Positions 42,147 to 56,739 of a stretch of DNA of 64,000 bases are shown in pieces; the first letter of the stretch is position 1, and the number at the start of each line of letters is the position of its first letter. The notes under the pieces were generated by a model. The model saw only the letters and a list, made by a program, of their open reading frames with translations, ran no database searches and was not told where the DNA came from. This DNA is from Acidobacteriota bacterium (GTDB lineage Bacteria; Acidobacteriota; Thermoanaerobaculia; Multivoradales; Multivoraceae), in contig JAJCXN010000030.1 in the NCBI GenBank assembly GCA_029263415.1, forward strand, positions 1-64,000, written 5' to 3'. Position numbers and translations under genes: made by a program.

Positions 42147-45107
42147 ATGAACAGAAGACGAAGGCAGTTACCAACTTGGCTGAGCATGTCGCTGGTCGCC
42201 GCACTGATCGGCTGTACCGCCACTTCGATGCCGCCCGAGCCACCCGAGGCGCCGACTGTTGCACCGCAAGAGACCGAAAGACCGGCGCCTGCAACGAGTC
42301 TGCCTGCGGCACCCGTCGCTTCCTCAGGAGAAGTGCCGCTAGATCCAGCGGTTAAGCAAGGGAGGCTCAAGAACGGGCTTCGCTATTTCATCCGCGAGAA
42401 CGAGCGGCCGGCGAACCGAGCCGAGTTGCGCTTGGTGGTCAACGCGGGTTCGTTGCAAGAAGACGAAGATCAGCTGGGCCTGGCTCACTTTGTTGAGCAC
42501 ATGGCTTTCAATGGCACCAAGAACTTCGAGAAGCAAGAGTTGGTCGACTACCTCGAAGGCATCGGCATGCGCTTCGGTCCCGACTTGAACGCCTACACCA
42601 GCTTCGACGAGACCGTCTACATGCTGCAACTGCCCACCGACGAAGAGGACATTCTCGCTAAGGGTTTCGACATCCTCGAGGACTGGGCGCACAACATCTC
42701 CTTCGACGATGAGGAGATCGACAAGGAGCGCGGCGTCGTCATCGAGGAATGGCGCTCTCGCCAGGGTGCCGGCAGTCGGATTCAAGATCAGCAACTCCCG
42801 GTCACCTTCTTTGGGTCGATGTACGCCGAGCGCCTGCCGATCGGGACGGTAGAGATCCTGAGCAACGCGCCCTACCAACGGCTGCGCGACTTCTACCGCG
42901 ATTGGTATCGACCCGACCTGATGGCGGTGGTTGCGGTGGGCGATTTCGATGAAGCCAAGATCGAGGCCACCATCAAGAAGCACTTCTCCAGAATCAAGCC
43001 GGTGGCCAAGCCGCGTGCCCGCACCAATACCGAGATCCCGGATCATGCTGAGACGCTGGTCAGCATCGTCTCTGATCCAGAGGCGACGTCCAGCCGCGTT
43101 GCGGTGGGATGGAAACGGCCGCCCTACGGCGAGACCATGACCCTCGACGCGTTGCGCCAGGACGTGGTTGATGAGCTTTACCACAACATGATGATCGGTC
43201 GACTCCAAGAGCTGGCTCAGACAGCGGATCCGCCGTACCAGTTTGCGTTCGCTTTTGATGCGTCGCTAGGGCGTACCAAGTCGATCTATCGGTTGGTCAC
43301 CAGCGTTAACGACGGTGGCGTCACCAGAGGGCTCGAGACCATGCTGGTCGAGGCCAAGCGAGTCAGGGATCACGGTTTCACTAGTTCCGAACTCGCACGT
43401 GGCAAGGAAAATTTTCTGCGCGGCGTCGAGCGCGCTTACGAAGAGCGCGACAAGCAGGAGTCGAGATCTCTGGTCGGCGGCTATGTGAGCTTCTTCCTAG
43501 AGGGCGATCCGTCGCCGAGTGTGGAGTTCTTGCGTGACTTCTATGTGGACGCAGTGCCTGGAGTGACGATCGAAGAGATCAATGCTCGTGCCGAGCAATG
43601 GATGACCGGCGGCGAGGACCAACCGATCGAAGCCAACCGCGTCATCTTGGTGAGCGGCCCAGATACTGAAGCCGCAGATTTGCCGAGCGAAGCGCAGCTG
43701 CTGGCGGTGTTTGATGAGATCGACGATGTAGCAACTACGCCGTGGGTCGACCGCACCAGCGACGACCCGTTGGTTGCAGTGCAGCCCGAGCCAGGCAAGA
43801 TCACTAGCGAAGAGACCATTCCCGAAGTCGACGCAACCAAATGGACGCTGTCGAATGGCATTGAGGTTTACTTGAAGACGACCGACTTCAAGAACGACCA
43901 GATCTTGATGGCAGCATCGAGCCCCGGTGGCCATTCACTGGTTTCAGACGAAGAATTTTTCAACGCATCCCAGGCCGGTGGTCTGGTCATGCAGATGGGG
44001 CTCGGCTCCCTGGGACCGATTGAGTTGGGCAAGAAACTCACCGGCAAAGCGGTCCGCATCGACGCCAACATTGGTGAGCGGCAAGAGAGCGTTGGAGGCA
44101 GCGCGTCGCCCAAGGATCTCGAGACGTTGTTCCAGTTGAACTACTTGGCGTTCACCGCGCCGCGCTATGACGAAGTTGCCTTCCAGTCTCTCAAAAGCCG
44201 CATCAGCGGAATTCTCGAGAATCAGAAGGCGTCGCCGCGATACTGGTTCAACAAGCGACAGCGGGAGGAGTTCTTTGGTGATCACCCGCGTCGACAAGGC
44301 TTCGAAGCCGAAGACGTGGAGCGGATGGACGCGCATGAAGCATTGCGTATCTACAAAGAGCGCTTCGCTGATGCGTCGGATTTCAAGTACTTCTTTGTTG
44401 GCAACTTCGAGCTTGATGAGATGCGGCCATTAGTGGAGCGTTGGCTCGCGGGCTTGCCGAATCTCGACCGTGAAGAGACCTGGAAGGACGTCAACGCGTA
44501 CCCCGCAACCGGGGCTCGCAAGTTTGTTGTGCAGAAGGGCTTGGAGCCTCGTGCCCAGGTGCAGCTCAGCTACTTTGGCGATACCGAATGGAGTATCGCG
44601 CGGTCCAACGTGGCGTCTGCGGTTGGTCAAGCGCTGCGCATCCGGCTGCGCGAAGTTCTACGCGAGGATCTGGGTGGGGTCTATGGCGTGGGGGTCGGGA
44701 CAGGCATCAGTCGTCTGCCGCGCGGTCGCTATAGCGCCAACATCGGCTTCGGCACCGATCCTGAACGCGTGGACGAGCTGCTCGCCGCGACGCAGGCTGC
44801 GATTGATGTGTTCAAGAGCGACGGCCCATCGCAAGAGGCGATCGACAAGGTTAAGGAGAGTTGGCGTCGGAGTCGCGAAACGCAGCTCGAACAGAACGGA
44901 TTCTGGCTTGGCGTTATGCAGAACTACGTCGAAGACGAACGTCCTTGGTCTGATTTCGACAAGTTCGAGCAACGGCTCGAAGCGGTTACCGTTGAGTCAG
45001 TGCGAGACTTCACTCGCATCCTCTTTGACGATGCGAATGTGGTCGAAGGCCGCCTGGTGCCTGAGGAGTCGATCGATGCGGAGACCGGGTCGGGATCCGA
45101 TCGCTAG
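42147..45107 (+). CDS. M16 family zinc metalloprotease lipoprotein (insulinase/pitrilysin type)
   Basis: 986 residues from ATG 42147 (AAGGA at 42132-42136). Signal with lipobox A-A-L-I-G-C at C23 and a Pro/Glu-rich linker to about residue 65. The inverted zinc motif is H114-F-V-E117-H118 with the distal ligand E194. The second M16 half (from about residue 570) lacks an HxxEH motif, as usual for two-half proteases where the C-terminal half only closes the chamber. Likely degrades peptides in the periplasm. Stop codons of this gene and the convergent gene at 45104 overlap by CTAG. Confidence 0.92.
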   Translation: MNRRRRQLPTWLSMSLVAALIGCTATSMPPEPPEAPTVAPQETERPAPATSLPAAPVASSGEVPLDPAVKQGRLKNGLRYFIRENERPANRAELRLVVNAGSLQEDEDQLGLAHFVEHMAFNGTKNFEKQELVDYLEGIGMRFGPDLNAYTSFDETVYMLQLPTDEEDILAKGFDILEDWAHNISFDDEEIDKERGVVIEEWRSRQGAGSRIQDQQLPVTFFGSMYAERLPIGTVEILSNAPYQRLRDFYRDWYRPDLMAVVAVGDFDEAKIEATIKKHFSRIKPVAKPRARTNTEIPDHAETLVSIVSDPEATSSRVAVGWKRPPYGETMTLDALRQDVVDELYHNMMIGRLQELAQTADPPYQFAFAFDASLGRTKSIYRLVTSVNDGGVTRGLETMLVEAKRVRDHGFTSSELARGKENFLRGVERAYEERDKQESRSLVGGYVSFFLEGDPSPSVEFLRDFYVDAVPGVTIEEINARAEQWMTGGEDQPIEANRVILVSGPDTEAADLPSEAQLLAVFDEIDDVATTPWVDRTSDDPLVAVQPEPGKITSEETIPEVDATKWTLSNGIEVYLKTTDFKNDQILMAASSPGGHSLVSDEEFFNASQAGGLVMQMGLGSLGPIELGKKLTGKAVRIDANIGERQESVGGSASPKDLETLFQLNYLAFTAPRYDEVAFQSLKSRISGILENQKASPRYWFNKRQREEFFGDHPRRQGFEAEDVERMDAHEALRIYKERFADASDFKYFFVGNFELDEMRPLVERWLAGLPNLDREETWKDVNAYPATGARKFVVQKGLEPRAQVQLSYFGDTEWSIARSNVASAVGQALRIRLREVLREDLGGVYGVGVGTGISRLPRGRYSANIGFGTDPERVDELLAATQAAIDVFKSDGPSQEAIDKVKESWRRSRETQLEQNGFWLGVMQNYVEDERPWSDFDKFEQRLEAVTVESVRDFTRILFDDANVVEGRLVPEESIDAETGSGSDR

Positions 45108-45850
45108 CCGCGACTGATCTCGTCGACTCGGTGCTGGAGGGCGGTGATCCGTGCCTCCAGCTCTGCGCGCCAGGCCTCGAATTCCTCTGCCTTTAAGCGT
45201 GGAGGAAGTGCCATGGGTTCGCCGTAGATTACATCGACCCGGGCGAAGGGCCAGGGCAAGAGGGTGAGATCCCAGGATCTGCGGAGGGTGTAGCTGGGAC
45301 GTGCGGCTGCGGTGATCGGGACGATCAACCCGCCGGTGCGTTGTGCCAGCGAGATGATGCCGCCTTGGACCTTCCCACGGGGACCGCGCGAGCCATCAAT
45401 TGCTAGACAGGACGAGAGTTCGGGATCCTTTTGCACGCGCCGGATCATGTCGAGGATTGCCTGCAGGCCATCTCGACCGGACGAGCCACGGATGACCTCG
45501 AAGCCGAACGTCTCCTCGACCTTGGCCATGGCGTCTCCGTCGAGGCTCTTGGAACACATCGACAGCCACCGCCCGTTGCGGGACCGACCCATGAAGCGCA
45601 AGAGCAAGAAGATGCGTCCATGCAGGAACGCACCGACGATCGGCTTGCCAGCGGCACGGGCGGCGTCGAAGTGATGCCGATCCGTCTCTCGGTAGCGCCA
45701 GGTGAAATCGAGCAACCGGATCAGACTGACTGCCAGCAGCGGCACGACCCGCAGCATCAAAAAGCGCTTGGCTGGTCCGGCCTGCGTCGAGGGTGAGGGC
45801 TCCGCCGGGGCGCTGCCCCAGATCACGCGGTCTTGGTTCCCTCGAGACAC
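45104..45850 (-). CDS. DUF374 lysophospholipid acyltransferase-like protein
   Basis: 248 residues. The PlsC/LpxL-like fold of DUF374: P-I-V-G-A-F-L-H-G-R-I-F-L near residue 69-81 (catalytic His in the F-L-H-G motif), D-G-D-A-M-A-K-V near 104, R-G-S-S-G-R-D-G near 120, D-G-S-R-G-P-R-G-K-V near 148-157 and I-V-P-I-T. Such enzymes transfer acyl chains to membrane lipids or lipid A-like acceptors. GTG start inside the ACP gene (28 bp overlap). Last gene of a four-gene operon, so it probably uses acyl chains delivered by the preceding ACP. Confidence 0.85.
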   Translation of the reverse strand: MSRGNQDRVIWGSAPAEPSPSTQAGPAKRFLMLRVVPLLAVSLIRLLDFTWRYRETDRHHFDAARAAGKPIVGAFLHGRIFLLLRFMGRSRNGRWLSMCSKSLDGDAMAKVEETFGFEVIRGSSGRDGLQAILDMIRRVQKDPELSSCLAIDGSRGPRGKVQGGIISLAQRTGGLIVPITAAARPSYTLRRSWDLTLLPWPFARVDVIYGEPMALPPRLKAEEFEAWRAELEARITALQHRVDEISRG

Positions 45851-46071
45851 GTCACTAGGTCGCCCACCGTTTGCATCTCGAGGATTGTAGCGGCGGCGAG
45901 CTGGGTGCCGAATTCTTGATCCAGATCAAAGATCAGGTCGAGCACGGAGAGGGAGTCGAAGCCGAAAGACTCGAGCGGAGTTTCTTCCGTGACGTCGCTC
46001 CAATCGACGTCTTCGGCTGAGGATTCTTCGATGACGTCGCCGAGGCGTTGCAGGAGGTCTGCACGGCTCAT
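45823..46071 (-). CDS. Dedicated acyl carrier protein
   Basis: 82 residues, acidic. The phosphopantetheine site is S40 in G-F-D-S-L-S-V-L-D-L. Start ATG overlaps the ketosynthase stop (ATGA). This is not the usual housekeeping AcpP type (which has D-S-L-D); the S-L-S-V-L-D form is seen in specialised lipid and polyketide systems. It would carry the chain built by the upstream reductase and ketosynthase and hand it to the DUF374 enzyme. Confidence 0.9.
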   Translation of the reverse strand: MSRADLLQRLGDVIEESSAEDVDWSDVTEETPLESFGFDSLSVLDLIFDLDQEFGTQLAAATILEMQTVGDLVTCLEGTKTA

Positions 46072-47366
46072 GGTGTCTCCAGGTTAAGTGGGGAATCAGG
46101 TGAGCGACCAAGAACAAGAACACCGTTGCCACCGCCAAAGCCAAAGCTGTTCTTCATCGCCAAGCCGGGGGCCAAGGTGCACGGTGTGTTGCCGATCAAC
46201 TGCACGTCACAGGCGGGATCGGGGTGGTCGAGATTGAGGTTCGCCGGTGCGGTTCCAGATTCTAGTGCGAGCACGGTGACGACACTTTCAATGGCGCCTG
46301 AAGCGCCTAAGGTGTGTCCGAAGTATGACTTGCTCGCGCCGATGGGAATCGACCCCGCGGCGTCGCCCAGAGCTTCGCGAATCGACAGGCACTCGGTGAT
46401 GTCGTTGGCCTGGGTGCCGGTGCCATGGGCGTTGATGTAGGCGATGTCGCTGGCGACGGCGTCAGCACTTTGCAGCGCGCGCCGGATCGCAACAGCTTGC
46501 CCGGCAACCGATGGGCTGGTGAGGTGGGTGGCGTCTGAGGACTCTCCGTAGCCTTTGATCTCACCGCGTATGCGCGTGCCGCGTCGCTCGGCGCTCTCGA
46601 AAGATTCGAGCACAAGGGCCCCAGCTCCTTCACCGAGCAGTGTGCCCGCTCGATCGCGGTCAAATGGTCGCAAAGCCGTGGTTGGCTCGGGCAGCACGGA
46701 GAGCACGCCCAGGTTGTTCCACAGACCGTAGTAGAAGGGGTCGGAGCAGGCATCAACGCCACCGCACAGGACGGTGTCGGCATAGCCGTCTTGGATCAAG
46801 CGGAACCCTTGTCCGAGAGCGTTGGTGGACGAAGTGCACGCCGAAACGATGACTTGGTTGGTGCCGCGCAAAGAGAACTGGATGGAGACGCTGGCCGAGA
46901 TCGTGTTCGCCATGCACGCGGGGACGCTGCTCGGCCGCATGCCCTGAGGACCCTTGTCCGCGAATCGTAAGTTGGCGTTGTAAAGAGCGCCGCATGGACC
47001 GCAGCCGCAGCCCCACAGATTGGCGACGTCGAGTCCCTCGGCTGGTTCCGACTTGAGATCCTCTTCGCGCTCATGGGGGATCAGGCCAGCTTCGAGCAAC
47101 GCCTGCCGTGAGGCTTCAGTTGCGAACCGGACCGTGCGATCGGCGCGCCGCAGCTTGCCGCGTTGGTGATGCTCAAAGGCAGAGGTGTCGACCTCGCCAC
47201 CGTGCTGCACGGTGTTTCCAGAGGCGTCGAAACTGCGGATGACACCAAGGCCGCTCTCTCCGGCTAGCAGGCGTTGCCAGTTGGTTTCGACATCGTGGCC
47301 CAAAGAGGTGACCATGCCAAGGCCAGTCACCGCGACCCGGCGCTTTAGTGCCCTCGAATTGCTCAT
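46068..47366 (-). CDS. Beta-ketoacyl-ACP synthase (FabF-like)
   Basis: 432 residues from ATG 47366, which forms ATGA with the upstream reductase stop; an in-frame GTG at 47378 would add four residues. Catalytic triad complete: C177 in V-S-A-C-T-S-S, H314 in N-A-H-G-T-G-T and H351 in Y-F-G-H-T-L-G-A-S-G. The segment L-W-G-C-G-C-G-P-C-G near residue 118-127 replaces the usual G-T-G-x-G-G loop and is cysteine-rich, which is unusual. Elongates ACP-bound chains with malonyl units. Part of the reductase-KS-ACP-acyltransferase operon. Confidence 0.9.
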   Translation of the reverse strand: MSNSRALKRRVAVTGLGMVTSLGHDVETNWQRLLAGESGLGVIRSFDASGNTVQHGGEVDTSAFEHHQRGKLRRADRTVRFATEASRQALLEAGLIPHEREEDLKSEPAEGLDVANLWGCGCGPCGALYNANLRFADKGPQGMRPSSVPACMANTISASVSIQFSLRGTNQVIVSACTSSTNALGQGFRLIQDGYADTVLCGGVDACSDPFYYGLWNNLGVLSVLPEPTTALRPFDRDRAGTLLGEGAGALVLESFESAERRGTRIRGEIKGYGESSDATHLTSPSVAGQAVAIRRALQSADAVASDIAYINAHGTGTQANDITECLSIREALGDAAGSIPIGASKSYFGHTLGASGAIESVVTVLALESGTAPANLNLDHPDPACDVQLIGNTPCTLAPGLAMKNSFGFGGGNGVLVLGRSPDSPLNLETP

Positions 47367-48106
47367 CCGTTCATCCACATGCCGCCATCGACGTGCAGCA
47401 CCTGACCGGTCATGTAAGCGGCGTCTTCCCCTAGAAGGAACGCCACTACGCCGGCGATGTCGGCAGGGGTTGCCATGCGTTTGAGCGGGATGCCGAGATC
47501 GCCGCGCAACGCGTCTGGGAGGTCGTTGGTCATATCGGTTTCAACGAATCCTGGGGAGATTGCATTGCAACGGATGCCAAAGCGCGCCGATTCCAGTGCC
47601 AGGCTCTGAGTCAGGCTGACCATGGCCGCTTTGGATGCAGCGTAGTCGGCTCCCATCCATTTACCTGGCCCGTGCGCTGACAGCGAAGCTATGTTGACGA
47701 TGGCGCCACGCTTTTGTTTACGCATTAGCGTGTAGGCGGCTTGTGACGCGACCATCGCGGCTTCGAGGTTGATGCGGAAGGTCTGTTGCCAGCTGTCGAC
47801 CGTGAGAGCCCGAAAGGGGATCGCGCGGCCGCTGCCAGCATTGTTGACCAGGCCGTCGATGCGCCCGGTGGCCTGGACAAACCTATCGACCAGGTCTTTG
47901 GCTGAAGCCGGGTCTGACAGGTCTGCGCTAAAGGGCAGAGCGCGTTCGGGATGGAGTTCCGTTGCCGTGAGCTTTACCCCGTCCAGATCGCGGCCGTGGA
48001 GGCCGACCACCGCGCCGTCGGCAATCAAGCGTTCGGCGATGCCCCGGCCAATGCCGCGAGTGGATCCAGTAACGAGAACGCAGCGCTGTGCAGGGGGTTG
48101 AACCAA
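47363..48106 (-). CDS. 3-oxoacyl-ACP reductase-like short-chain dehydrogenase
   Basis: 247 residues. Classical SDR: cofactor loop T-G-S-T-R-G-I-G, N-N-A-G near residue 88-91, catalytic Ser in N-I-A-S-L-S, Y155 and K159 (Y-A-A-S-K), and P-G-F-V-E-T. FabG-like proteins reduce the 3-keto group with NADPH. First gene of the operon; the next three genes follow with overlapping starts. No dehydratase or enoyl reductase gene is present here, so the product may be a 3-hydroxyacyl chain, or these steps come from housekeeping enzymes. Confidence 0.88.
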   Translation of the reverse strand: MVQPPAQRCVLVTGSTRGIGRGIAERLIADGAVVGLHGRDLDGVKLTATELHPERALPFSADLSDPASAKDLVDRFVQATGRIDGLVNNAGSGRAIPFRALTVDSWQQTFRINLEAAMVASQAAYTLMRKQKRGAIVNIASLSAHGPGKWMGADYAASKAAMVSLTQSLALESARFGIRCNAISPGFVETDMTNDLPDALRGDLGIPLKRMATPADIAGVVAFLLGEDAAYMTGQVLHVDGGMWMNG

Positions 48107-48343: not shown

Positions 48344-48751
48344 ATGAGCGAGCTAGCCCCGCCAGATGAACTGAGCCAAGCCTTGGGGGCGACCGGTGAA
48401 CGCTCGGTCGATGCCGAAGCCGGTACTGCCCGCATCCATTACATCGTGAAGCCTGAGTTCTGCCATTCCGGCGGCATTGCCCAGGGCGGGTTCGTCACCG
48501 GTTGGTTGGATTCGGCGATGGCGTTTGCCGCGATGTCTCGGGCGGATCGCTCCATCTGGCTGGCGACACTCGAGCTCAAGGTTAGTTTCTTTGGCCCCGC
48601 GCGCGCACAGACTGAAGTGGTCTCGGATGGTTGGATCGCAAAGCCGGGTCGCAGCATCGTCTTTTTGGAGTCGCGGCTAACCGAACTCGACGGGGGCAAG
48701 GTGCTTGCGACCAGTTCGTCGACCGCCAAGTTGGTGGCCCTCAAGCGCTAG
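48344..48751 (+). CDS. PaaI-like hotdog-fold thioesterase
   Basis: 135 residues. Hotdog features: H-S-G-G-I-A-Q-G-G-F-V-T-G-W-L-D-S-A-M-A, with the hydrogen-bonding Gly-Gly and the catalytic-type Asp, and an E-L-K-V-S-F-F-G-P-A-R strand. These enzymes hydrolyse acyl-CoA or acyl-ACP esters. Divergent from the reductase-KS-ACP operon at 237 bp; a role in releasing or editing acyl chains from that system is possible but only by proximity. Confidence 0.87.
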   Translation: MSELAPPDELSQALGATGERSVDAEAGTARIHYIVKPEFCHSGGIAQGGFVTGWLDSAMAFAAMSRADRSIWLATLELKVSFFGPARAQTEVVSDGWIAKPGRSIVFLESRLTELDGGKVLATSSSTAKLVALKR

Positions 48752-48780
48752 ACGGGGGTCAGCGATGCTTGGTTTTGCCG

Positions 48781-48806
48781 CCTGTGCCTGTGCCTGTGCC
48801 TGTGCC
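48781..48806 (+). repeat. (CCTGTG)4 microsatellite
   Basis: Four perfect copies of a 6-bp unit, plus two bases, in the 89-bp gap between the thioesterase and the convergent polyprenyl transferase gene. Non-coding. Confidence 0.85.
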
Positions 48807-48840
48807 GGAGGCCGTGGCCACGCCACGAGACTAGGAAGGG

Positions 48841-50298
48841 CTAGGAAGCGCCGCGCCCGCTCAGAACTGCAGGAATCGTTTTTAGGATGATCTTGAGATC
48901 AAGCATCGGCGACCACTTGTCGATGTACTCAAGATCCATCTCCATCCAACGATCGAAGTCGACGTTGTTGCGACCGGAAACCTGCCACAGACAGGTGAGC
49001 CCCGGCTTCATCGACAGTCGGCGGCGTTGCCCGCGGCTGTACTGCGCGACCTCGGTTGGCACTGGGGGGCGAGGCCCGACCAGGCTCATGTCCCCGCGCA
49101 GGACGTTCCACAACTGAGGCAGTTCGTCCAGGCTGAACTTGCGCAAGAATCGACCGATCCAAGTGACCCGCGGGTCTCGGCGAACCTTAAAGGCGGGCCC
49201 GTCCATCTCGTTGAGGTGGGCAAGTTCGGATTGACGATGCTCTGCGCCGTCGACCATGGTGCGGAACTTGTACAAGGTGAACGTGCGACCGTTCAAGCCG
49301 CACCGCGTCTGTTGGTAGACCACCTGGCCGGTGGATGTCATCTTGATCACCAGCGCAATGAGCAGCACCAGGGGCAATCCAAAGAGCGCAAGCACGGTGG
49401 CAAGGGCGACGTCCATGGATCGCTTAGCGAGTAGTTGGGCGTAGCTAGTGGGTGCGCGGGAGAAACTCAAGAGAGAAACTCCACCCATCTCTTCGAGCTC
49501 TATCCGGCTAGGGGCAACCGGTGCTAGGTCCAAGAGGAAGCGGGTGCGGACACCTTGCTCGTGGAGGGCAGCAAACGAGCTCTCGAGCTCTCTTAAGTCT
49601 CGATGGGAGACCGAGAAAAAGACATCGTCCACCACGTTGTCTTCGAGCAGTTGGGGAAGGTCCTCAAGTGAACCGAGCAAAGGTCCTCCGAGGTTGCGTT
49701 TGGGGTCGCGGTCGGTGCTCCGGGTCTTGACGAAGCCGAGCAGCTTGAAGCCCCAATAGGAGTGATCGTTGATCGATGCAGCGAGCGTGCGCGCGGGCCG
49801 GTTAGTGCCGACGATGACTAGGGTGCGGTAGTTGAAACCGCGCTGGCGAACGTAGCGAGAGGTGAGCCGAATGCCGAGCTTCTCGAGCAGCAGGAGTGTA
49901 GCTGCGAGAATCGCGAACACCACCACCCAACCGCGACTCAGGCGGTCGCCTTGAAGCAGATAGGAGTCAAAGCGGGTGATGAAGAAGAACAGCGACCACA
50001 CAACCGTTGCCAGCAATGTCACGCGCAACACGGACAGCACCTCTGACGCCAAGGTCATGGTGCGGTGCGATCGGTAGATGTGGTTGGCGACCAGCGCGAA
50101 AGACCAGCACAAGAGCGCGATCGGCAACAGCGGCAAGTACTGGGTCAGCGGATAGAGCCGGCTCGGGAAGAGCGTGGGCGCAACGCTGGGCAGCCAGCCG
50201 TCGCGGACCAGGAACGCGAGCACGAACGCAGCCGTTACCAGTAGTAGGTCCAGCACGAAAATCGACCCGTGTAGCATTCGGGCTCGTTGTTTGAGCAT
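48841..50298 (-). CDS. Exopolysaccharide polyprenyl glycosylphosphotransferase (WbaP/WcaJ type)
   Basis: 485 residues. Four N-terminal TM helices (about 10-130), a CoA-binding-like Rossmann domain about 150-270, a fifth TM at about 300-325 after K-R-S-M-D-V, and the bacterial sugar transferase domain: Q-T-R-C-G-L-N-G, Y-K-F-R-T-M, K-F-S-L-D-E-L-P-Q-L, V-G-P-R-P-P and K-P-G-L-T-C-L-W-Q-V-S-G-R. Starts glycan synthesis by moving a sugar-1-phosphate to undecaprenyl phosphate at the inner membrane. Separated by 204 bp from the upstream glycosyltransferase gene. Confidence 0.93.
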   Translation of the reverse strand: MLKQRARMLHGSIFVLDLLLVTAAFVLAFLVRDGWLPSVAPTLFPSRLYPLTQYLPLLPIALLCWSFALVANHIYRSHRTMTLASEVLSVLRVTLLATVVWSLFFFITRFDSYLLQGDRLSRGWVVVFAILAATLLLLEKLGIRLTSRYVRQRGFNYRTLVIVGTNRPARTLAASINDHSYWGFKLLGFVKTRSTDRDPKRNLGGPLLGSLEDLPQLLEDNVVDDVFFSVSHRDLRELESSFAALHEQGVRTRFLLDLAPVAPSRIELEEMGGVSLLSFSRAPTSYAQLLAKRSMDVALATVLALFGLPLVLLIALVIKMTSTGQVVYQQTRCGLNGRTFTLYKFRTMVDGAEHRQSELAHLNEMDGPAFKVRRDPRVTWIGRFLRKFSLDELPQLWNVLRGDMSLVGPRPPVPTEVAQYSRGQRRRLSMKPGLTCLWQVSGRNNVDFDRWMEMDLEYIDKWSPMLDLKIILKTIPAVLSGRGAS

Positions 50299-50355
50299 CT
50301 AGTCCCCTCAGCGTCCTCTCCGCGTTCCGAGCGAAGAGATTACCTTGCGCAATTA

Positions 50356-50370
50356 TCTCTATTGTAGAGA
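50356..50370 (-). promoter_or_regulatory. Palindrome in the leader of the polyprenyl transferase gene
   Basis: TCTCTA-N3-TAGAGA in a short AT-rich patch, about 58 bp before the ATG at 50298. On the minus strand it includes TACAAT, a near-consensus -10, without a clear -35. Could be an operator over a secondary promoter of the glycan operon. Confidence 0.35.
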
Positions 50371-50502
50371 CTTACGAGCGCGAGCGGGAGGATGTTGAGG
50401 CAGAGTTTGCGATGCAAGAGCTTCGGGGTCTGAGACCGCTTTGCCTCAAGAGGCTGCTCTGTCTGGTGGGTTCTTGCTGCGAAGAGCCGAATCGCGTGAG
50501 GC

Positions 50503-51621
50503 TTAGCGCGCCCCGCTGAGCTCTAGGAATAGCTGTTCGTAGGCCTGGGTGACAGCGTCCCACGAATACTCATCTTGCGCGCGAGCCTTCGCCGCCCGCC
50601 GGTAGCGAGCAACAGTCTCTTGATCGTCGTCCAATGCATCAAACAACTGAGTGAGAGTTTCGGGTTCGCGAGCACGAAACAGCAGCGCGGCGTCGGCGGC
50701 CACTTCGCGGTTCTCAGGTACATCGTTGAGCAAGATGCAGTTGCCGAAGCCCATTGCTTCGAGCAGCGCAGGGTGCGTACCGCCGACTTCGGTGGCTTGC
50801 ACGTAGGCGTAGGCGTGGGTCTGCAGTTCGCGATAGGCGTCGCCATACAGAGCGCCGGGAAAGAGGATCCGCGAATCGCCCGTTTCGGTGAAGCTGCGAA
50901 TGAAGTCGTCGGCGTAGGGTGCAGATCCGAGCATCACCAACCTGCGCTTCGCATGGGAAGCGCGAAACGCTTCGGCCACCCGGTGGGGATTGTTCTCAGG
51001 CTCAAAGCGAGAGACGTACAGAAAGTAGGAGTCGGGCTCGAGGCCCAAACTCTCCAGGGTCTCGGTGGTCGAGATAGGTTCAAGGTCGCTGCCGTAGGGG
51101 ATCATGGTCGAGACTGCTGAATGCTGCTCCAAGAAGTGACGTTCGATGGCGCGCGCGTCGGTCACTAGGCGATGGGGTACAAGCGTGGCGAGCCGCTCGG
51201 AGACTCGATAGACAATCTGGCCTAGCCGTCCCCACTTGGCCCGCTCTTGTTCTAGGCCGTCAACGTGCAGGGCGGTTGGAATGAGGCCGGCGCGCAGAAT
51301 CGGGACGAAGACGGTGTTGGCGGCGTTGACGAGCAGCACCGCATCGAAGCGGCGGCACACGGCGTCGATGGTCGAGAGCAGGGTGTGAACCGGAGTGTCG
51401 AGATACTTGGTGCGAACGGTCGGCAAGACCACTAAGCGAACGCCATCAATGTAGCGCTCGGATCGTTGGGTGTAGTGCGATCGACAGTAGACCGTGATCG
51501 AGTGGCCACGTTTGACCAGCCGCTTGGACAGCTGCTCCATGAAGGTCTCGTAGCCGCCGTATCGAGCCGGAATGCCACGACTTCCCATCAGGGCGATGCG
51601 CAACGGCTTCTGGGTGCTCAC
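50503..51621 (-). CDS. Glycosyltransferase, GT4 with DUF1972 N-terminal domain
   Basis: 372 residues from GTG 51621, which overlaps the upstream stop (GTGA). The N-terminal half carries the DUF1972 motif I-A-L-M-G-S-R-G-I-P-A-R-Y-G-G-Y-E-T-F, the C-terminal half the GT4 donor site T-H-P-A-L-L-E-A-M-G-F-G-N with E-N-R-E-V. This group transfers rhamnose, glucose or galactose units in capsule and O-antigen clusters; the exact sugar is not predictable. Last gene of the coupled glycosyltransferase series. Confidence 0.9.
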   Translation of the reverse strand: MSTQKPLRIALMGSRGIPARYGGYETFMEQLSKRLVKRGHSITVYCRSHYTQRSERYIDGVRLVVLPTVRTKYLDTPVHTLLSTIDAVCRRFDAVLLVNAANTVFVPILRAGLIPTALHVDGLEQERAKWGRLGQIVYRVSERLATLVPHRLVTDARAIERHFLEQHSAVSTMIPYGSDLEPISTTETLESLGLEPDSYFLYVSRFEPENNPHRVAEAFRASHAKRRLVMLGSAPYADDFIRSFTETGDSRILFPGALYGDAYRELQTHAYAYVQATEVGGTHPALLEAMGFGNCILLNDVPENREVAADAALLFRAREPETLTQLFDALDDDQETVARYRRAAKARAQDEYSWDAVTQAYEQLFLELSGAR

Positions 51622-52715
51622 GGCTCGCTCGCTTGATCGAACGATAGGGGGAACGCGTCCGCGCTGAACCAACGGTTGACGCGGGAGTTGGGTGCGGTCT
51701 GCTGGGCTTTGAGCCATCTTCGCCTGCGGAGCAGCCGAGCGCGGTGCTTGATCAAGAATGTGTAAGCCCGAAGCGAGGAACGCTCACGCAAGAGCACGTA
51801 CGGCAAGATCGCCAGATCACGAATGAGCGCTGGCAGCGTCAAGGCGAGATTGAAGGGGCTTTGGTGCAGTAGGCGCAACAGGTACCGATTCTTGAGCGAG
51901 TGGTAGTTGATCGACGTGCTCATCTTCGAGCGCCGCTCGGGGAGGTTGTAGCGGCCGTGCTCGATCACCGCTTGAGGTTCATAGATACATCGCCAATCTC
52001 GGCGCTGCAGGCGCAAACCCAGTTCGGCGTCTTCGCGAAACGAATGGAAGTCTTCGTCGAAGGGTTGAGCGTGTTTCGCGGCGCTGGTCTCTGATGGAGG
52101 TAGGGCCACGTCATGGAGCGCCTCAAGACTGTAGAGCGTTCCTGCTCCGGTGCCAGCAAAGACCTCTTCGGCTTCGCTGAGCCGACCGTCGTCGGGCTCG
52201 CTCGATCCGCGATCCAGATGGCGCCACTGGCGTGTCCAGCGCATGCCGCAGGCGTCGAGTACCCTACCTTCGTTGGCCTCACACTGAGGCCGGACCAATC
52301 GTGCGGTCACCGAGCCGACGCGAAAGCTGGATCCTTCGGCCGAGCCGCGCGGCGTGTAGCGGGTGAAGGCGGACACGAGGTGAGGCAAGCAGTCTTTGTG
52401 GGGTCGCGCGTCTGGATTGAGCGCTAGCGCCCAAGCATCGTGGGGCTTGAGTTCGGCGAGGCAGCGGTTCATGCCGCCGGCGAAGCCCAGGTTGTCATCA
52501 GCAGCGATCACCTGCAGCGCTGGCGATGCGCCGCCACCAGCTTCGAGAGCTCTCAGTGTCTTGACGCTGTTGTCGTTGCTGGCGCAATCGACAGCGACCA
52601 CGCGCACCCTTAAGTCCCGCACATCGAGTGCACACAGCGCCTCCCACCAACCGGCGAGATGCGCAGCCGAGTTGTGCGTCACGGTGCAGATGAGGAGTCC
52701 GTTGTGCAGGCTCAC
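51618..52715 (-). CDS. Family 2 glycosyltransferase
   Basis: 365 residues from GTG 52715 (GTGA with the previous gene); the longer frame upstream overlaps the neighbour and is rejected. GT-A fold: I-C-T-V-T-H-N-S-A-A-H-L, V-V-A-V-D-C-A-S-N-D-N-S, D-N-L-G-F-A-G-G-M-N-R and the metal-binding L-N-P-D-A-R. A rhamnosyltransferase-like enzyme is a fair guess from the N-P-D motif, not more. Cytoplasmic face of the inner membrane. Confidence 0.9.
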   Translation of the reverse strand: MSLHNGLLICTVTHNSAAHLAGWWEALCALDVRDLRVRVVAVDCASNDNSVKTLRALEAGGGASPALQVIAADDNLGFAGGMNRCLAELKPHDAWALALNPDARPHKDCLPHLVSAFTRYTPRGSAEGSSFRVGSVTARLVRPQCEANEGRVLDACGMRWTRQWRHLDRGSSEPDDGRLSEAEEVFAGTGAGTLYSLEALHDVALPPSETSAAKHAQPFDEDFHSFREDAELGLRLQRRDWRCIYEPQAVIEHGRYNLPERRSKMSTSINYHSLKNRYLLRLLHQSPFNLALTLPALIRDLAILPYVLLRERSSLRAYTFLIKHRARLLRRRRWLKAQQTAPNSRVNRWFSADAFPLSFDQASEP

Positions 52716-53665
52716 GAGTCGCGATCCTGTCGCGGTGGCCAGCGCCATCCGGTGACCGCAGAGGTCGCGAGTTGAATCAAGGCGATGGCTGCTGCGGTGC
52801 GTGAGTGCGAGGCCCTGGGCACGCGCACGAGCAGGGTTGGCAGTCGCAGTATTGCCGCGATCGCGACGATCAAGGGAGCGGTCGCCGCCACCACACGCCA
52901 GCCTCGCGCCAACGCAAAGCGCTGCAGGTTGCGATAGTAGATGCGCAAGAAGCGAGCGAAGCCCAACGACGGCACACTGGCGCCGCCCGCGTGTGTGAAC
53001 TCCGCACGCCGCGCATAGCGACCGACGTAGCCTGCGTCTGCGAGGCGCTGGGCGAAATCGACGTCCTCGAACCAAGCCGGCGCGAAGCGCTCGTCGAATC
53101 CGTCGATCTCAACGAAAGCATCGCGACGGACCAAGAGCGCTGCCGCCGCAGGCTGCTCGACGGCTGCGCCGTCCGCGGGCTCGATTGCTGGTCCGCGCGG
53201 CCTGCTCAAGAACAGGCATTGCGCCAATAGGTGACGGCGCTCGGTGAGCGGTCGCAGCTGCCAGCGGTGTTGACTGCGAGTGCCATCGCTCTTGAGATCT
53301 GGGTCGATCAGACGCGGTGCGACCATCGCAACTTGTGGGTCATGCTGCTCATACTCTTCGGCAGCCGCCAACAACTGCTCGAGCGCTTCGAGGTTCGCCA
53401 CCGTGTCGGCATTGAGCACCAACAGCCAACGACCGTTGGACCGGCGTGCGCCTTCGTTGACGCCTCCGCCGAAGCCGAGGTTTCGGCTCGGAGTGATCCA
53501 CTGTGCCCAGGGGTGCTCTGCTGCAAGTGCCGCGATGCTGCCGCTGTTGTCGACAATGGTCAGAGCGAACCGCTGATCGCGAGGCCAGGCCGCAAGGAGC
53601 TGGCCGAGCTCCGTTTCGTTGCGCCAGTGAACAACGATGCCGCTCAGTTCGGGCGCCGAGTTCAC
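52712..53665 (-). CDS. Family 2 glycosyltransferase
   Basis: 317 residues from GTG 53665 (GTGA with the upstream gene). GT-A motifs V-V-H-W-R-N-E-T-E-L, R-N-L-G-F-G-G-G-V-N-E-G and L-V-L-N-A-D-T for the metal site. The C-terminal part has a hydrophobic segment (V-A-A-T-A-P-L-I-V-A-I-A-A-I-L-R-L) that may anchor it to the membrane. Its order in the glycan pathway cannot be told from sequence. Confidence 0.9.
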   Translation of the reverse strand: MNSAPELSGIVVHWRNETELGQLLAAWPRDQRFALTIVDNSGSIAALAAEHPWAQWITPSRNLGFGGGVNEGARRSNGRWLLVLNADTVANLEALEQLLAAAEEYEQHDPQVAMVAPRLIDPDLKSDGTRSQHRWQLRPLTERRHLLAQCLFLSRPRGPAIEPADGAAVEQPAAAALLVRRDAFVEIDGFDERFAPAWFEDVDFAQRLADAGYVGRYARRAEFTHAGGASVPSLGFARFLRIYYRNLQRFALARGWRVVAATAPLIVAIAAILRLPTLLVRVPRASHSRTAAAIALIQLATSAVTGWRWPPRQDRDS

Positions 53666-54624
53666 CGAGGGCTCGTTACAGCTTCGAGAGGATGGGCTGC
53701 GTGCCAGCTCAAGAAGCGGGGTAGGAGTCGGGCTGCCCGCGCCCATCCGCGCAGGGCGCCAACGCCGAAGTCGCGCAGGTCACGCAGCATTAAGGCGGGC
53801 ACGGATGGCAGGTAGCCACGCCCGAGATGGCGTGCGAGGACTAAGTGCCGGTTAGCGATCAACAGGCGTTGGCGTTTCTTGGGGGCGCTCGATGATCCAG
53901 CGTGTTCGCAGCGCACGGTGACGTCGCACAAGGCGCTCCACCCTGAGCGCTGCAGGCGACAAGCGAGGTCCACGTCCTCGTAGTAGGTGTCTAGCGATTC
54001 CTCGAACACATTGCAGCCAGCTTTGATGGCGGACTGTAGCGCCTCGACCCGAAAGACTGCCGCGGTTGCCGATACCCCGAATAGCATGCGCACGTTCTCG
54101 CCGTTCTCGGGGTTCTCTGTGTTCTCGGTGAAGTCTGAAACCTCGACGCAGTGGCCGATCTGCACCGCCTGGCGCTGCGGGCTCCAGCGAATGCCGGCGC
54201 CATCAATCAGAGTACTGATGCCGGTTCTGCGACGGATGAGGTTTAGGCCTTGTGCCGCACCGACTTGCGGGTGGGTTTGTAGCTGTGCGATCAGGCGCGC
54301 GAGCCAGGTGTCGTCGATGATTGCGTCGTCGTTGATCAAGGCGATGAACTCGGGAGCGGCTGATTCGAGCCGAACTAGATCTTGCAGCGCTCGGTTGTTC
54401 GCTGCCGCAAAACCGATTGGTCGTTCGCAACGAATGTGACGATCGGTGCAGCGGTCCACGATCTGAGTCGTCTGTTCGTTGAGTGTTCCTTGAGAGACCA
54501 CGATGAGCTCGAGGTCGACGCTCTTGCGCTGCCGGCCAATGGCTTCGAGTGATTCTTCGAGCAGGTCGCTGGTGCCGAGCGTGGCGACGACCACTGCGAC
54601 TTGCGGTCGTGCTTCAGCGGTCAT
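53662..54624 (-). CDS. Family 2 glycosyltransferase with a short tandem-repeat insert
   Basis: 320 residues from ATG 54624 (ATGA with the upstream gene). GT-A motifs V-V-V-A-T-L-G-T-S-D-L, G-F-A-A-A-N-N-R-A and L-I-N-D-D-A-I-I-D. A region near residue 168-178 reads E-N-T-E-N-P-E-N-G-E-N, encoded by four 9-bp repeats (54094-54129), between two conserved parts of the fold. Such a repeat could change loop length near the acceptor site. Confidence 0.88.
   Translation of the reverse strand: MTAEARPQVAVVVATLGTSDLLEESLEAIGRQRKSVDLELIVVSQGTLNEQTTQIVDRCTDRHIRCERPIGFAAANNRALQDLVRLESAAPEFIALINDDAIIDDTWLARLIAQLQTHPQVGAAQGLNLIRRRTGISTLIDGAGIRWSPQRQAVQIGHCVEVSDFTENTENPENGENVRMLFGVSATAAVFRVEALQSAIKAGCNVFEESLDTYYEDVDLACRLQRSGWSALCDVTVRCEHAGSSSAPKKRQRLLIANRHLVLARHLGRGYLPSVPALMLRDLRDFGVGALRGWARAARLLPRFLSWHAAHPLEAVTSPR
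54094..54129 (-). repeat. Four 9-bp tandem repeats inside the glycosyltransferase gene
   Basis: Plus-strand units GTTCTCGCC, GTTCTCGGG, GTTCTCTGT and GTTCTCGGT. The 9-bp period keeps the reading frame and encodes E-N-x four times on the minus strand. Confidence 0.85.
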
Positions 54625-56582
54625 TCGATCGACCCCACACTGCCGATCGAGACCACGCTGCCGATCGAGACCCGATCGATGCGCAGCTGCACCTGGGGTG
54701 GCAGTTCCGGGTTGCGCTCGACGCGCACGGACGCTTCGGTGCCGCGATTGGCGGTCTGGCTAGTGTTGACTGCGTGACCCGCGGCTTTCAGTAGCAGCCG
54801 GCTACGGAAACGTTGACCGAGTAGTGGCGGCTCATCGTCGGTCCACCAATGGGCAAACGGCCGGAGTTGGGTCGGCAGTGGACCGCTCCCCTCCCCAGTG
54901 TGCGTTCCGGAGCGCAGCTCTGAAGCCAAGGTGGTTTCGAATCCCTCGACCAGGACGGTTGCTGTCACGGTGCTTGGCTCGAGTCCAGCGCCGTAAGCGA
55001 GGAAGGTGTCGATCCACAGGACGACCGCCGCGCCAGGCTCGGCGCCGTTCTGGTCCGCCACCCAGTCTGCTGGCAACTCGTAGGCGGCTTCGGGCGCATC
55101 AGCCTTGAGCACATGCGGTGGCCACTGGTGAATGGTGCGGTTGACGCCGACGTGAGTTCCAAAGAGGCACAGTGCAACCGCAGCCAAGAAGCACAGCGCA
55201 AGGATCGGTAAGGCGGCTGTACTAAGGAGCGCGGAGCGCTTTTTGGTGGTTGTGCCGGTCACCACTACGAATCCCGCGATTAGCGCCGCTCCCGTGCACA
55301 GAGCCAGGGTCAGCCAGGACGGTGTCTCACCGATCGCTCTGGCGGTGCCGATCTGTTCGCCAACTCCGGCCGAGCGCAGCCAAGGGTAGCTGGCGGCGAG
55401 TGCGACTGCGCCAAGCCAAAGACCGAGCCAGCTACCGATGGTCGCGACGATGCGCTCGCGGTTGAGGGGGCCATTCGATCTGAACGGCGCACACCAATGG
55501 AGCGCTGCGGGGACGATTGCCAAATTGGGTTCGAGCGTGCGCAGGGTCACCGCGGCCAGAGCGACTCCGGTGAGCAGACGCCAGAGTTCGTCGCTTTCGA
55601 GGCGCAGTCCCAGCCAGTTGGTTGCGGTCTCGTCGCGCATCATCGCTGCAGCACTAATCGGCATGAGCAATACGAGGATAAAGAGACTCTCACCGACGGC
55701 GCCCCAAGGTCTTGAGGGCAAGGCAAGAGCAAACAAGGCCCCGACTACCACCAGCGCCGCCAGCCAACCCCGTCGTGCGCGCTGCGCCCAGGCCGCCATC
55801 ACCACGAACAGGCCAACCCACGATACGGCACACGCCGCCGCGACGAACATAGCGGCCACTGCCAGACGGGCGAGCCGATGTGCGCGTTGGCTCGCAACGG
55901 CCCACTCGATCGCGGCGCACGCCATCAGCGCAAGACCGGTGAACCAATGGGCACCAGCGAACACGATGACCGCGCAAGCGGCGCACAGCGCGTTCAGTCC
56001 CCAGGTGCGTCTGAGCCAGGCGGTCGCTATGCCAATCAACATGGCGATTGCGACCAGCTCGAGCCGTTCTTCGTTGCTCGCCGTCACCATGGTGATGGGC
56101 TCCAGTACGACTGCTAGCGCCAGAGATGCGGCAACGGTGACGACGTCGAGCCGGGTGGAAAACCCGAGGACCAAGGCTGTTCCGACATTCTCGGTCGTGC
56201 GCTGATCTGCGACCTCCTGGCCCGAAGCGCGCCACAAGAGCACCAAGGCGGCTCCGATCGGGATGAGGGTGATCGCTGCCACGAATTGGCGCAAGCCATA
56301 GGGCAGGCCGATGAGCGCGATGAACGGCAGTACTAGGCTCCATAGGAGTAGTGCGCTCAGGCGGCTCGATCGCGGGTCGGTCGGGATTGCAAGGAAGCAA
56401 ACCAAGAGCAACCCGAGCGCGAGGACTGCTTGCGTGGCGAGGAACTGTGCTTCCACCACTCCGGGGCCGTTGACCAAAGTGACGTGCACAGCGAGCCATC
56501 CTCCTGCTAGGAGGACGAGCCCGATAGCAACCCTGCTGAAGGACCGCCGTATCGGAGGCTGCGCGTGCGAGTTGCCGTTCAT
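54621..56582 (-). CDS. Large multi-pass membrane protein of the glycan operon
   Basis: 653 residues from M-N-G-N-S-H-A-Q at ATG 56582; ATG 56630 is also in frame. About 13 hydrophobic segments fill the first 475 residues; the last 170 are a soluble, probably periplasmic domain. It lacks clear Wzx, Wzy or oligosaccharyltransferase signatures, but position at the head of the operon fits a polymerase, ligase or sugar-modifying role. The C-terminus repeats S-I-G-S-V (V-S-I-G-S-V-V-S-I-G-S-V-G-S-I-E), encoded by short tandem DNA repeats. The ATGA overlap links it to the next gene. Confidence 0.72.
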   Translation of the reverse strand: MNGNSHAQPPIRRSFSRVAIGLVLLAGGWLAVHVTLVNGPGVVEAQFLATQAVLALGLLLVCFLAIPTDPRSSRLSALLLWSLVLPFIALIGLPYGLRQFVAAITLIPIGAALVLLWRASGQEVADQRTTENVGTALVLGFSTRLDVVTVAASLALAVVLEPITMVTASNEERLELVAIAMLIGIATAWLRRTWGLNALCAACAVIVFAGAHWFTGLALMACAAIEWAVASQRAHRLARLAVAAMFVAAACAVSWVGLFVVMAAWAQRARRGWLAALVVVGALFALALPSRPWGAVGESLFILVLLMPISAAAMMRDETATNWLGLRLESDELWRLLTGVALAAVTLRTLEPNLAIVPAALHWCAPFRSNGPLNRERIVATIGSWLGLWLGAVALAASYPWLRSAGVGEQIGTARAIGETPSWLTLALCTGAALIAGFVVVTGTTTKKRSALLSTAALPILALCFLAAVALCLFGTHVGVNRTIHQWPPHVLKADAPEAAYELPADWVADQNGAEPGAAVVLWIDTFLAYGAGLEPSTVTATVLVEGFETTLASELRSGTHTGEGSGPLPTQLRPFAHWWTDDEPPLLGQRFRSRLLLKAAGHAVNTSQTANRGTEASVRVERNPELPPQVQLRIDRVSIGSVVSIGSVGSIE

Positions 56583-56739
56583 CGCAGCGACGGTAACACT
56601 GTGTTCGACGTTGTTGGGGTACACGATCACGTGTCCAATCTCGATAGGCTAGCCGCCCGCTGTGGAGGGCACGCGCCGAAGCCTTGCCACGGGCTATCTG
56701 CAGCCGACCATCGGCCGAACGACCATAGAAGAATCACCT

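Follow-up and report, generated by a model that had tools for sequence, protein, structure and literature searches.

What is the role of a short run of fatty-acid-type genes that carries its own acyl carrier protein and ends in an acyltransferase? The question is raised by a stretch of 64,000 nucleotides from an uncultured Acidobacteriota bacterium (positions 1 to 64,000 of contig JAJCXN010000030.1, assembly GCA_029263415.1), hereafter called the window. It corresponds to contig C30 in a genome (G000) of 6.9 Mb with a completeness of 99.2%. On the minus strand, from 48106 to 45104, the window encodes a FabG-like 3-oxoacyl-ACP reductase (KR), a FabF-like ketosynthase (KS), an acyl carrier protein (ACP) and a DUF374 acyltransferase, tightly packed in this order. 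A reading of the sequence alone had proposed that this compact set is able to lengthen and reduce an acyl chain bound to a carrier of its own and to deliver the chain to an acyltransferase of membrane lipids, and this proposal was supported. With moderate confidence, we propose that the cassette is a dedicated acyl-chain unit for the secondary (late) acylation of lipid A, which anchors lipopolysaccharide in the outer membrane.

According to this proposal, the KS would extend an acyl chain using malonyl units, the KR would reduce the 3-oxo group and the cassette's own ACP would carry the chain, which the DUF374 acyltransferase would then transfer from this ACP onto lipid A or onto one of its late precursors. 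If KS and KR act alone, the product would be a 3-hydroxyacyl chain, which is possible because the four-gene set contains no dehydratase. If the housekeeping dehydratase and enoyl reductase (FabZ/FabI) join, a longer saturated chain would result. The joint action of the four proteins, with the ACP as acyl donor and lipid A as acceptor, is probable.

The four-gene operon is genuine. All four open reading frames (ORFs) were found where they had first been placed, and their Pfam families were confirmed (Table 1). The catalytic Cys-His-His triad of the KS (C181/H318/H355), the phosphopantetheine attachment residue of the ACP (S40) and the Ser-Tyr-Lys site of the KR (Ser, Y155, K159) are present. 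Overlapping starts of ATGA, ATGA and 28 bp had been described. The KR/KS overlap is ATGA (47366-47363) when the in-frame ATG is taken as the KS start, and 16 bp with the listed start, GTG 47378; the KS/ACP overlap is ATGA at 46071-46068. Between ACP and DUF374, GTG 45850 gives the 28-bp overlap and the in-frame GTG 45826 gives GTGA; the latter, 4-bp overlap is likelier, since the relative L009 appears to have the same arrangement.

The gene set recurs in loci labelled Acidobacteriota, Verrucomicrobiota, Kiritimatiellota, Lentisphaerota and Myxococcota; the cassette is therefore conserved and not a chance assembly. Genome contigs were searched with the KS and the best 80 of 175 relatives were kept, among which a score gap (at least 407 bits against at most 322 bits for the rest) delimits the 19 nearest loci (L009-L027). 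Their KSs are 48-72% identical to that of the window. The KS is present in 19 of these 19 loci, the ACP stands beside it in 18 and an acyltransferase belongs to the cluster in 18. A cassette-type KR lies directly upstream in 16 loci and behind the acyltransferase in one (L022); it was not found in L017 and L023. The fourth slot is occupied by a PF03279 (LpxL-type) gene in 14 loci and by DUF374 in four, and one locus (L027) has neither; the assignment was made by Pfam for six of the 14 PF03279 loci and all four DUF374 loci, and by similarity for all 14. DUF374 directly follows the ACP in L009, L010 and L013, and is divergent and upstream in L011. No neighbouring family outside the cassette was common to more than three of 21 loci, hence there is no conserved dehydratase. 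Genes for LptF/LptG, the lipopolysaccharide export permease, lie near the cassette in three loci (L016 2970-5183, L022 6442-8669, L026 2-1012). A T2SSE-family ATPase was observed beside LptF/LptG in L016 and L022.

Conservation of the gene order, suggested earlier as a check, was also observed in wider surveys. The KS subfamily was searched for in 297 same-phylum genomes (E <= 1e-105) and in a sample of 194 Verrucomicrobiota genomes (E <= 1e-110), with chosen cut-offs that may miss diverged copies. Twelve of the 297 genomes carry it, namely the window's genome, ten of the sister genus and G015, which is of the same order; in the other 11, the acyltransferase is of the PF03279 (LpxL) type. The four genes stand together, with LpxL, in G176, G262 and G015, while in eight sister-genus genomes KR-KS and ACP-LpxL occupy separate sites, 10-22 kb apart on the same contig in seven genomes and on different contigs in G117. 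ACP and LpxL are adjacent in 9/9 split loci, counting G214, in which the pair is present although the cassette KS was not found at E <= 1e-105. This pairing of ACP and acyltransferase, maintained when the cassette splits, supports a role in lipid A acylation. In the Verrucomicrobiota sample (the phylum of the L012 genome), eight of 194 genomes carry the KS, and in four of these an acyltransferase lies beside it: LpxL in G300, G305 and G370, and DUF374 in G401. KR-KS pairs that lack an adjacent acyltransferase were found in L203, L204, L205 and L027, the last three also lacking an adjacent ACP. Two further observations concern the split cassettes. The gene after KR-KS in the sister genus belongs to the mpaB/rubber-oxygenase family (L107 6487-7644, Pfam on L107 only), and a 385-aa ORF, the length of the L107 gene, is also present in L111, L112, L115 and L118. 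In addition, KR-KS occurs twice in G117, close to the ends of contigs C19 and C34; both copies have the same KS score, and the second may be a product of the assembly.

In two KS trees, the cassette KSs form one clade apart from FabF with a support of 100/100. For these trees L024 was left out (same place as L109), near-copies among L111-L118 were dropped, and each tree retained a different subset of L107-L113. KSs of DUF374 cassettes form one clade within the cassette KSs, with support values of 98/92 (five rows) and 96/89 (six rows). At the next node (98/95; 96/92 in the six-row tree), some LpxL cassettes fall within and others outside. Since the DUF374 cassettes, six in all, thus lie as a single clade among those with LpxL, the simplest and likeliest account of the trees would be a single exchange of LpxL for DUF374, followed by spread across phyla.

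Comparison with protein family models places the cassette proteins near, but outside, established groups. The KS scored 392 bits against TIGR03150 (canonical FabF), which is under the equivalog cut-off of 493.75, and 384.5 bits against NF005589 (cut-off 387). The ACP reached 27.8 bits against NF005079 (PRK06508), a model which we take to be that of AcpXL; this value is far under the cut-off of 83. The KR is 78% identical to that of L009, and a motif of the AHGP...MGADYAA(S/A)KA type is common, with small variations, to 30 cassette KR rows. The C-G-C-G-P-C loop of the KS had been noted as unusual. It exists and sits at the position of E. coli FabF I108, a residue that lines the acyl pocket and has a role in chain length. 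It does not define the cassette, as it occurs in only two of 32 cassette KS rows (window and L009; one place is present twice among these rows and two rows are from one genome), while L010 has CGCGPA and other relatives vary there. As a hallmark of the cassette the loop was rejected; it is a private variant of the window and L009.

The window DUF374 protein scored 55.4 bits against PF04028, well above the gathering cut-off of 26.8. DUF374 is reported to correspond to LpxJ, a tested family of lipid A late acyltransferases that puts a secondary chain onto the 3'-linked primary chain, and mutation showed that R. typhi LpxJ needs W60, H61, D86, D132, W172 and D173 (PMC6148475). By motif alignment, five of these six positions are retained in the window protein. 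The proposed catalytic pair H61/D132 corresponds to H77/D152 and is kept in 6/6 cassette members; D86, W172 and D173 correspond to D104, W193 and D194. No HX4D/E motif is present at that His. The cassette members differ from LpxJ in having Leu or Phe for Trp60 and DGS for DGP (both in 6/6), and in being encoded with their own KR, KS and ACP. Of 38 other aligned DUF374s, 36 have Trp and two have Ser at the Trp60 position, DGP is found in 38/38, and none has Leu/Phe or DGS at these sites. As the equivalent of W60 is missing, the window acyltransferase is classed as LpxJ-like rather than LpxJ.

Cassette DUF374s form a single clade with a Shimodaira-Hasegawa-like approximate likelihood ratio test (SH-aLRT) value of 100 (5/39 rows). 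This tree contains 39 of 43 rows, since L132, L138, L139 and L140 were dropped as incomplete sequences; L202 was not included. The sixth cassette member (G401) scored 348 bits against a profile of the other five and has the same residues. DUF374 is common elsewhere in the phylum (256/297 genomes above the cut-off), and the window protein is the sole DUF374 match in its genome. That it is the phylum's ordinary single-copy DUF374 relocated into the operon was considered and rejected on the basis of its separate clade and the two motif differences. Second DUF374 copies were seen at L163/L164 (G168, G029), in which Ser-Glu replaces the conserved Trp-His and the proposed catalytic His is thus lost. 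In searches of the PDB with the window protein sequence, no convincing relative was detected (best E 0.19). The fold model of the window protein, based on a five-row alignment, had a predicted local distance difference test score (pLDDT) of 69.5 and a predicted template modelling score (pTM) of 0.67. Its top structural matches were PatA (E 7.3e-6; Z 14.5), PlsC (Z 12.6) and LpxM (Z 11.7). Apart from glycerol-3-phosphate acyltransferases and a single chain from complex I assembly (Z 11.3), the remaining rows were under Z 7.

Lipid A is the probable acceptor, because the fourth slot is mostly LpxL-type and DUF374 is the LpxJ family. The host genome possesses genes of the Raetz (lipid A) pathway (LpxC 308, LpxB 295 and LpxK 248 bits). 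LpxC was found in 22/23 cassette genomes, and LpxK and LpxB in 10/10 tested ones, including G299. The four PF03279 matches of the host genome are not of the cassette type: the best host match to cassette-type LpxL shows 29% identity and 82.8 bits, compared to 342-664 bits in 12 same-order genomes.

Several points weigh against this assignment. The evidence on acceptor and product is indirect. The Trp essential in R. typhi LpxJ is Leu76 in the window protein (among the six cassette members, four have Leu and two Phe), and this may entail a different activity or specificity. The fold model is modest, and the other four models reached pLDDT values of only 43-55. Co-occurrence with lipid A genes is weak support, as such genes are common; moreover, seven of the 22 LpxC matches are weak (101-127 bits), and LpxC was not found in G299, the genome of L011, in which LpxK and LpxB were found. 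Besides the copy in an aryl-polyene-type cluster, the host has three PF03279 genes, and the cassette is thus not the sole candidate for late acylation. PF03279 proteins also act outside lipid A, an example being the copy fused to MMPL in that cluster. Finally, four of the eight Verrucomicrobiota genomes (G314, G437, G477, G492) have no acyltransferase adjacent to the KS, and three of them no adjacent ACP; L027 is among these four cassettes, and distant copies were not searched for.

The best surviving alternative, which we regard as unlikely, is that the cassette makes a special chain and attaches it to another envelope molecule, such as an aminolipid, a glycolipid, a polysaccharide precursor or a protein. 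The predicted fold is common to PatA and PlsC, acyltransferases with other acceptors, the essential LpxJ Trp is absent, and polysaccharide genes adjoin the cassette in the window. Against these stand the occupation of the same slot by two distinct families of lipid A late acyltransferases, the location of LptF/LptG near three relatives, and the lipid A genes of the tested hosts. An origin as a second ordinary fatty-acid module, with extra FabG, FabF and AcpP copies feeding housekeeping chains and an acyltransferase that is adjacent by operon economy, is improbable. The closeness of KS, KR and ACP to housekeeping families, illustrated by the KS score just under the NF005589 cut-off, would fit such a module, as would the lack of a dedicated dehydratase. 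Yet the host has a separate run with a short-chain dehydrogenase/reductase (SDR), an ACP and a FabF-like KS at C55, the cassette KSs are a separate clade, and the ACP remains with the acyltransferase in split cassettes.

Aryl-polyene and flexirubin clusters carry KS, KR, ACP and an LpxL-like acyltransferase, along with a second, chain-length-factor-like KS, a ligase and an MMPL exporter. The host encodes at G000:C26 (L122, 136500-156000) a cluster with an AMP-ligase, two KS genes, a GT2 glycosyltransferase, an SDR, an MMPL-PF03279 fusion and a halogenase-like protein, which we read as aryl-polyene/flexirubin-like. The notion that the window cassette is a fragment of such a pigment pathway or a similar polyketide pathway draws on this likeness in content (KS, SDR and PF03279 are seen in C26), but is very improbable, as the four-gene set has a single KS and lacks a second KS, a ligase and an MMPL protein, and the host's own cluster of that type is elsewhere. 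Aryl-polyene membership, which the sequence-only reading had named as a possible refutation of its proposal, was accordingly rejected.

Lipid A acylation by the cassette has a parallel in a known system. PMC11901934 describes the acpXL-fabZXL-fabF2XL-fabF1XL-adhlA2XL-lpxXL cluster of Rhizobiales, which is devoted to the fatty acid of very long chain that lipid A bears. Both systems encode a dedicated ACP and one or more elongation enzymes with a lipid A acyltransferase using the product, and both are conserved sets that can split into transcription units. The window differs in having one KS instead of two, a KR of the SDR type where the rhizobial cluster has an alcohol dehydrogenase, a different gene order, DUF374 in place of LpxXL and no FabZ-type dehydratase in the four-gene set; its ACP also falls under the NF005079 cut-off. 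By our analysis, the cassette appears to work like the AcpXL-LpxXL system yet is not a member of it. LpxL/HtrB-type proteins (PF03279) hold the same fourth slot in most relatives but are a different family from the window gene. Housekeeping FabF, FabG and AcpP share families and catalytic residues with the cassette proteins, the cassette KS being in a separate clade.

As judged by titles and the beginnings of abstracts, none of the open-licence PMC papers listed in the literature searches describes the cassette, and the available part of a survey of lipid A gene evolution does not mention it (PMC3087551). A route to a special envelope lipid that is undescribed altogether, as first suggested, is disfavoured because the genes match a lipid A pathway, an outcome which the sequence-only reading itself had named as speaking against its proposal; the likely acceptor is lipid A, while the variant may be new. 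A more far-reaching version can be offered only tentatively. It would be an unreported lipid A tailoring system of the five phyla named above, in which a dehydratase-less KR-KS-ACP set makes a chain that is 3-hydroxylated or unusual in another way, carries it on a private ACP and delivers it directly to lipid A. In one lineage, LpxL would have given way to a new LpxJ-like subclass that lacks the Trp and has a donor or acceptor specificity of its own.

Coordinates of the cassette are summarised in Table 1. An M16 peptidase gene is convergent with the cassette and ends at 45107. A hotdog protein gene (48344-48751) is divergent from it. The divergent hotdog thioesterase had been pointed out as a possible partner; the gene exists, but a match (E <= 1e-3) was obtained only at the window's own place among 89 sources, and likewise among 40 sources, and the protein was rejected as a fifth cassette member. 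Directly upstream of the cassette, 48841-56630 (minus strand) is a surface-polysaccharide-like run with a bacterial sugar transferase (PF02397), four glycosyltransferases (one of group 1, three of group 2) and a protein of 669 aa that has no Pfam match. The interval from the hotdog gene to the sugar transferase gene contains a short tandem run of TGTGCC units at about 48780-48812. A promoter and terminator scan yielded no signal clearly exceeding shuffled sequences.

Table 1 Features of the four-gene cassette in the window
Feature	Position	Strand	Remarks
KR, FabG-like 3-oxoacyl-ACP reductase	47363..48106	-	First gene; listed start TTG; Pfam adh_short_C2 E 3.5e-57
KS, FabF-like ketosynthase	46068..47378	-	Likely start ATG 47366; Pfam ketoacyl-synt E 3.1e-42
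C-G-C-G-P-C loop of KS, residues 124-129	46992..47009	-	Alignment to E. coli FabF GSGIGG
ACP, the cassette's own acyl carrier protein, with Ser40 as phosphopantetheine site	45823..46071	-	Pfam PP-binding E 9.6e-11
DUF374 (LpxJ-family-like) acyltransferase	45104..45850	-	Likely start GTG 45826; PF04028 55.4 bits

These phyla are mostly uncultured and, to our knowledge, little is known about the structure of their lipid A. If the assignment to lipid A acylation is right, the cassette predicts the genomes for which a special secondary acyl chain is to be expected, with the ACP, the KS and the acyltransferase as candidates. The exchange of LpxL for DUF374 would constitute a natural experiment, in which the carrier and the elongation enzymes stayed and the transferring enzyme changed. 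For DUF374 genes, the cassette suggests a connection with one specific acyl donor, which can be tested.

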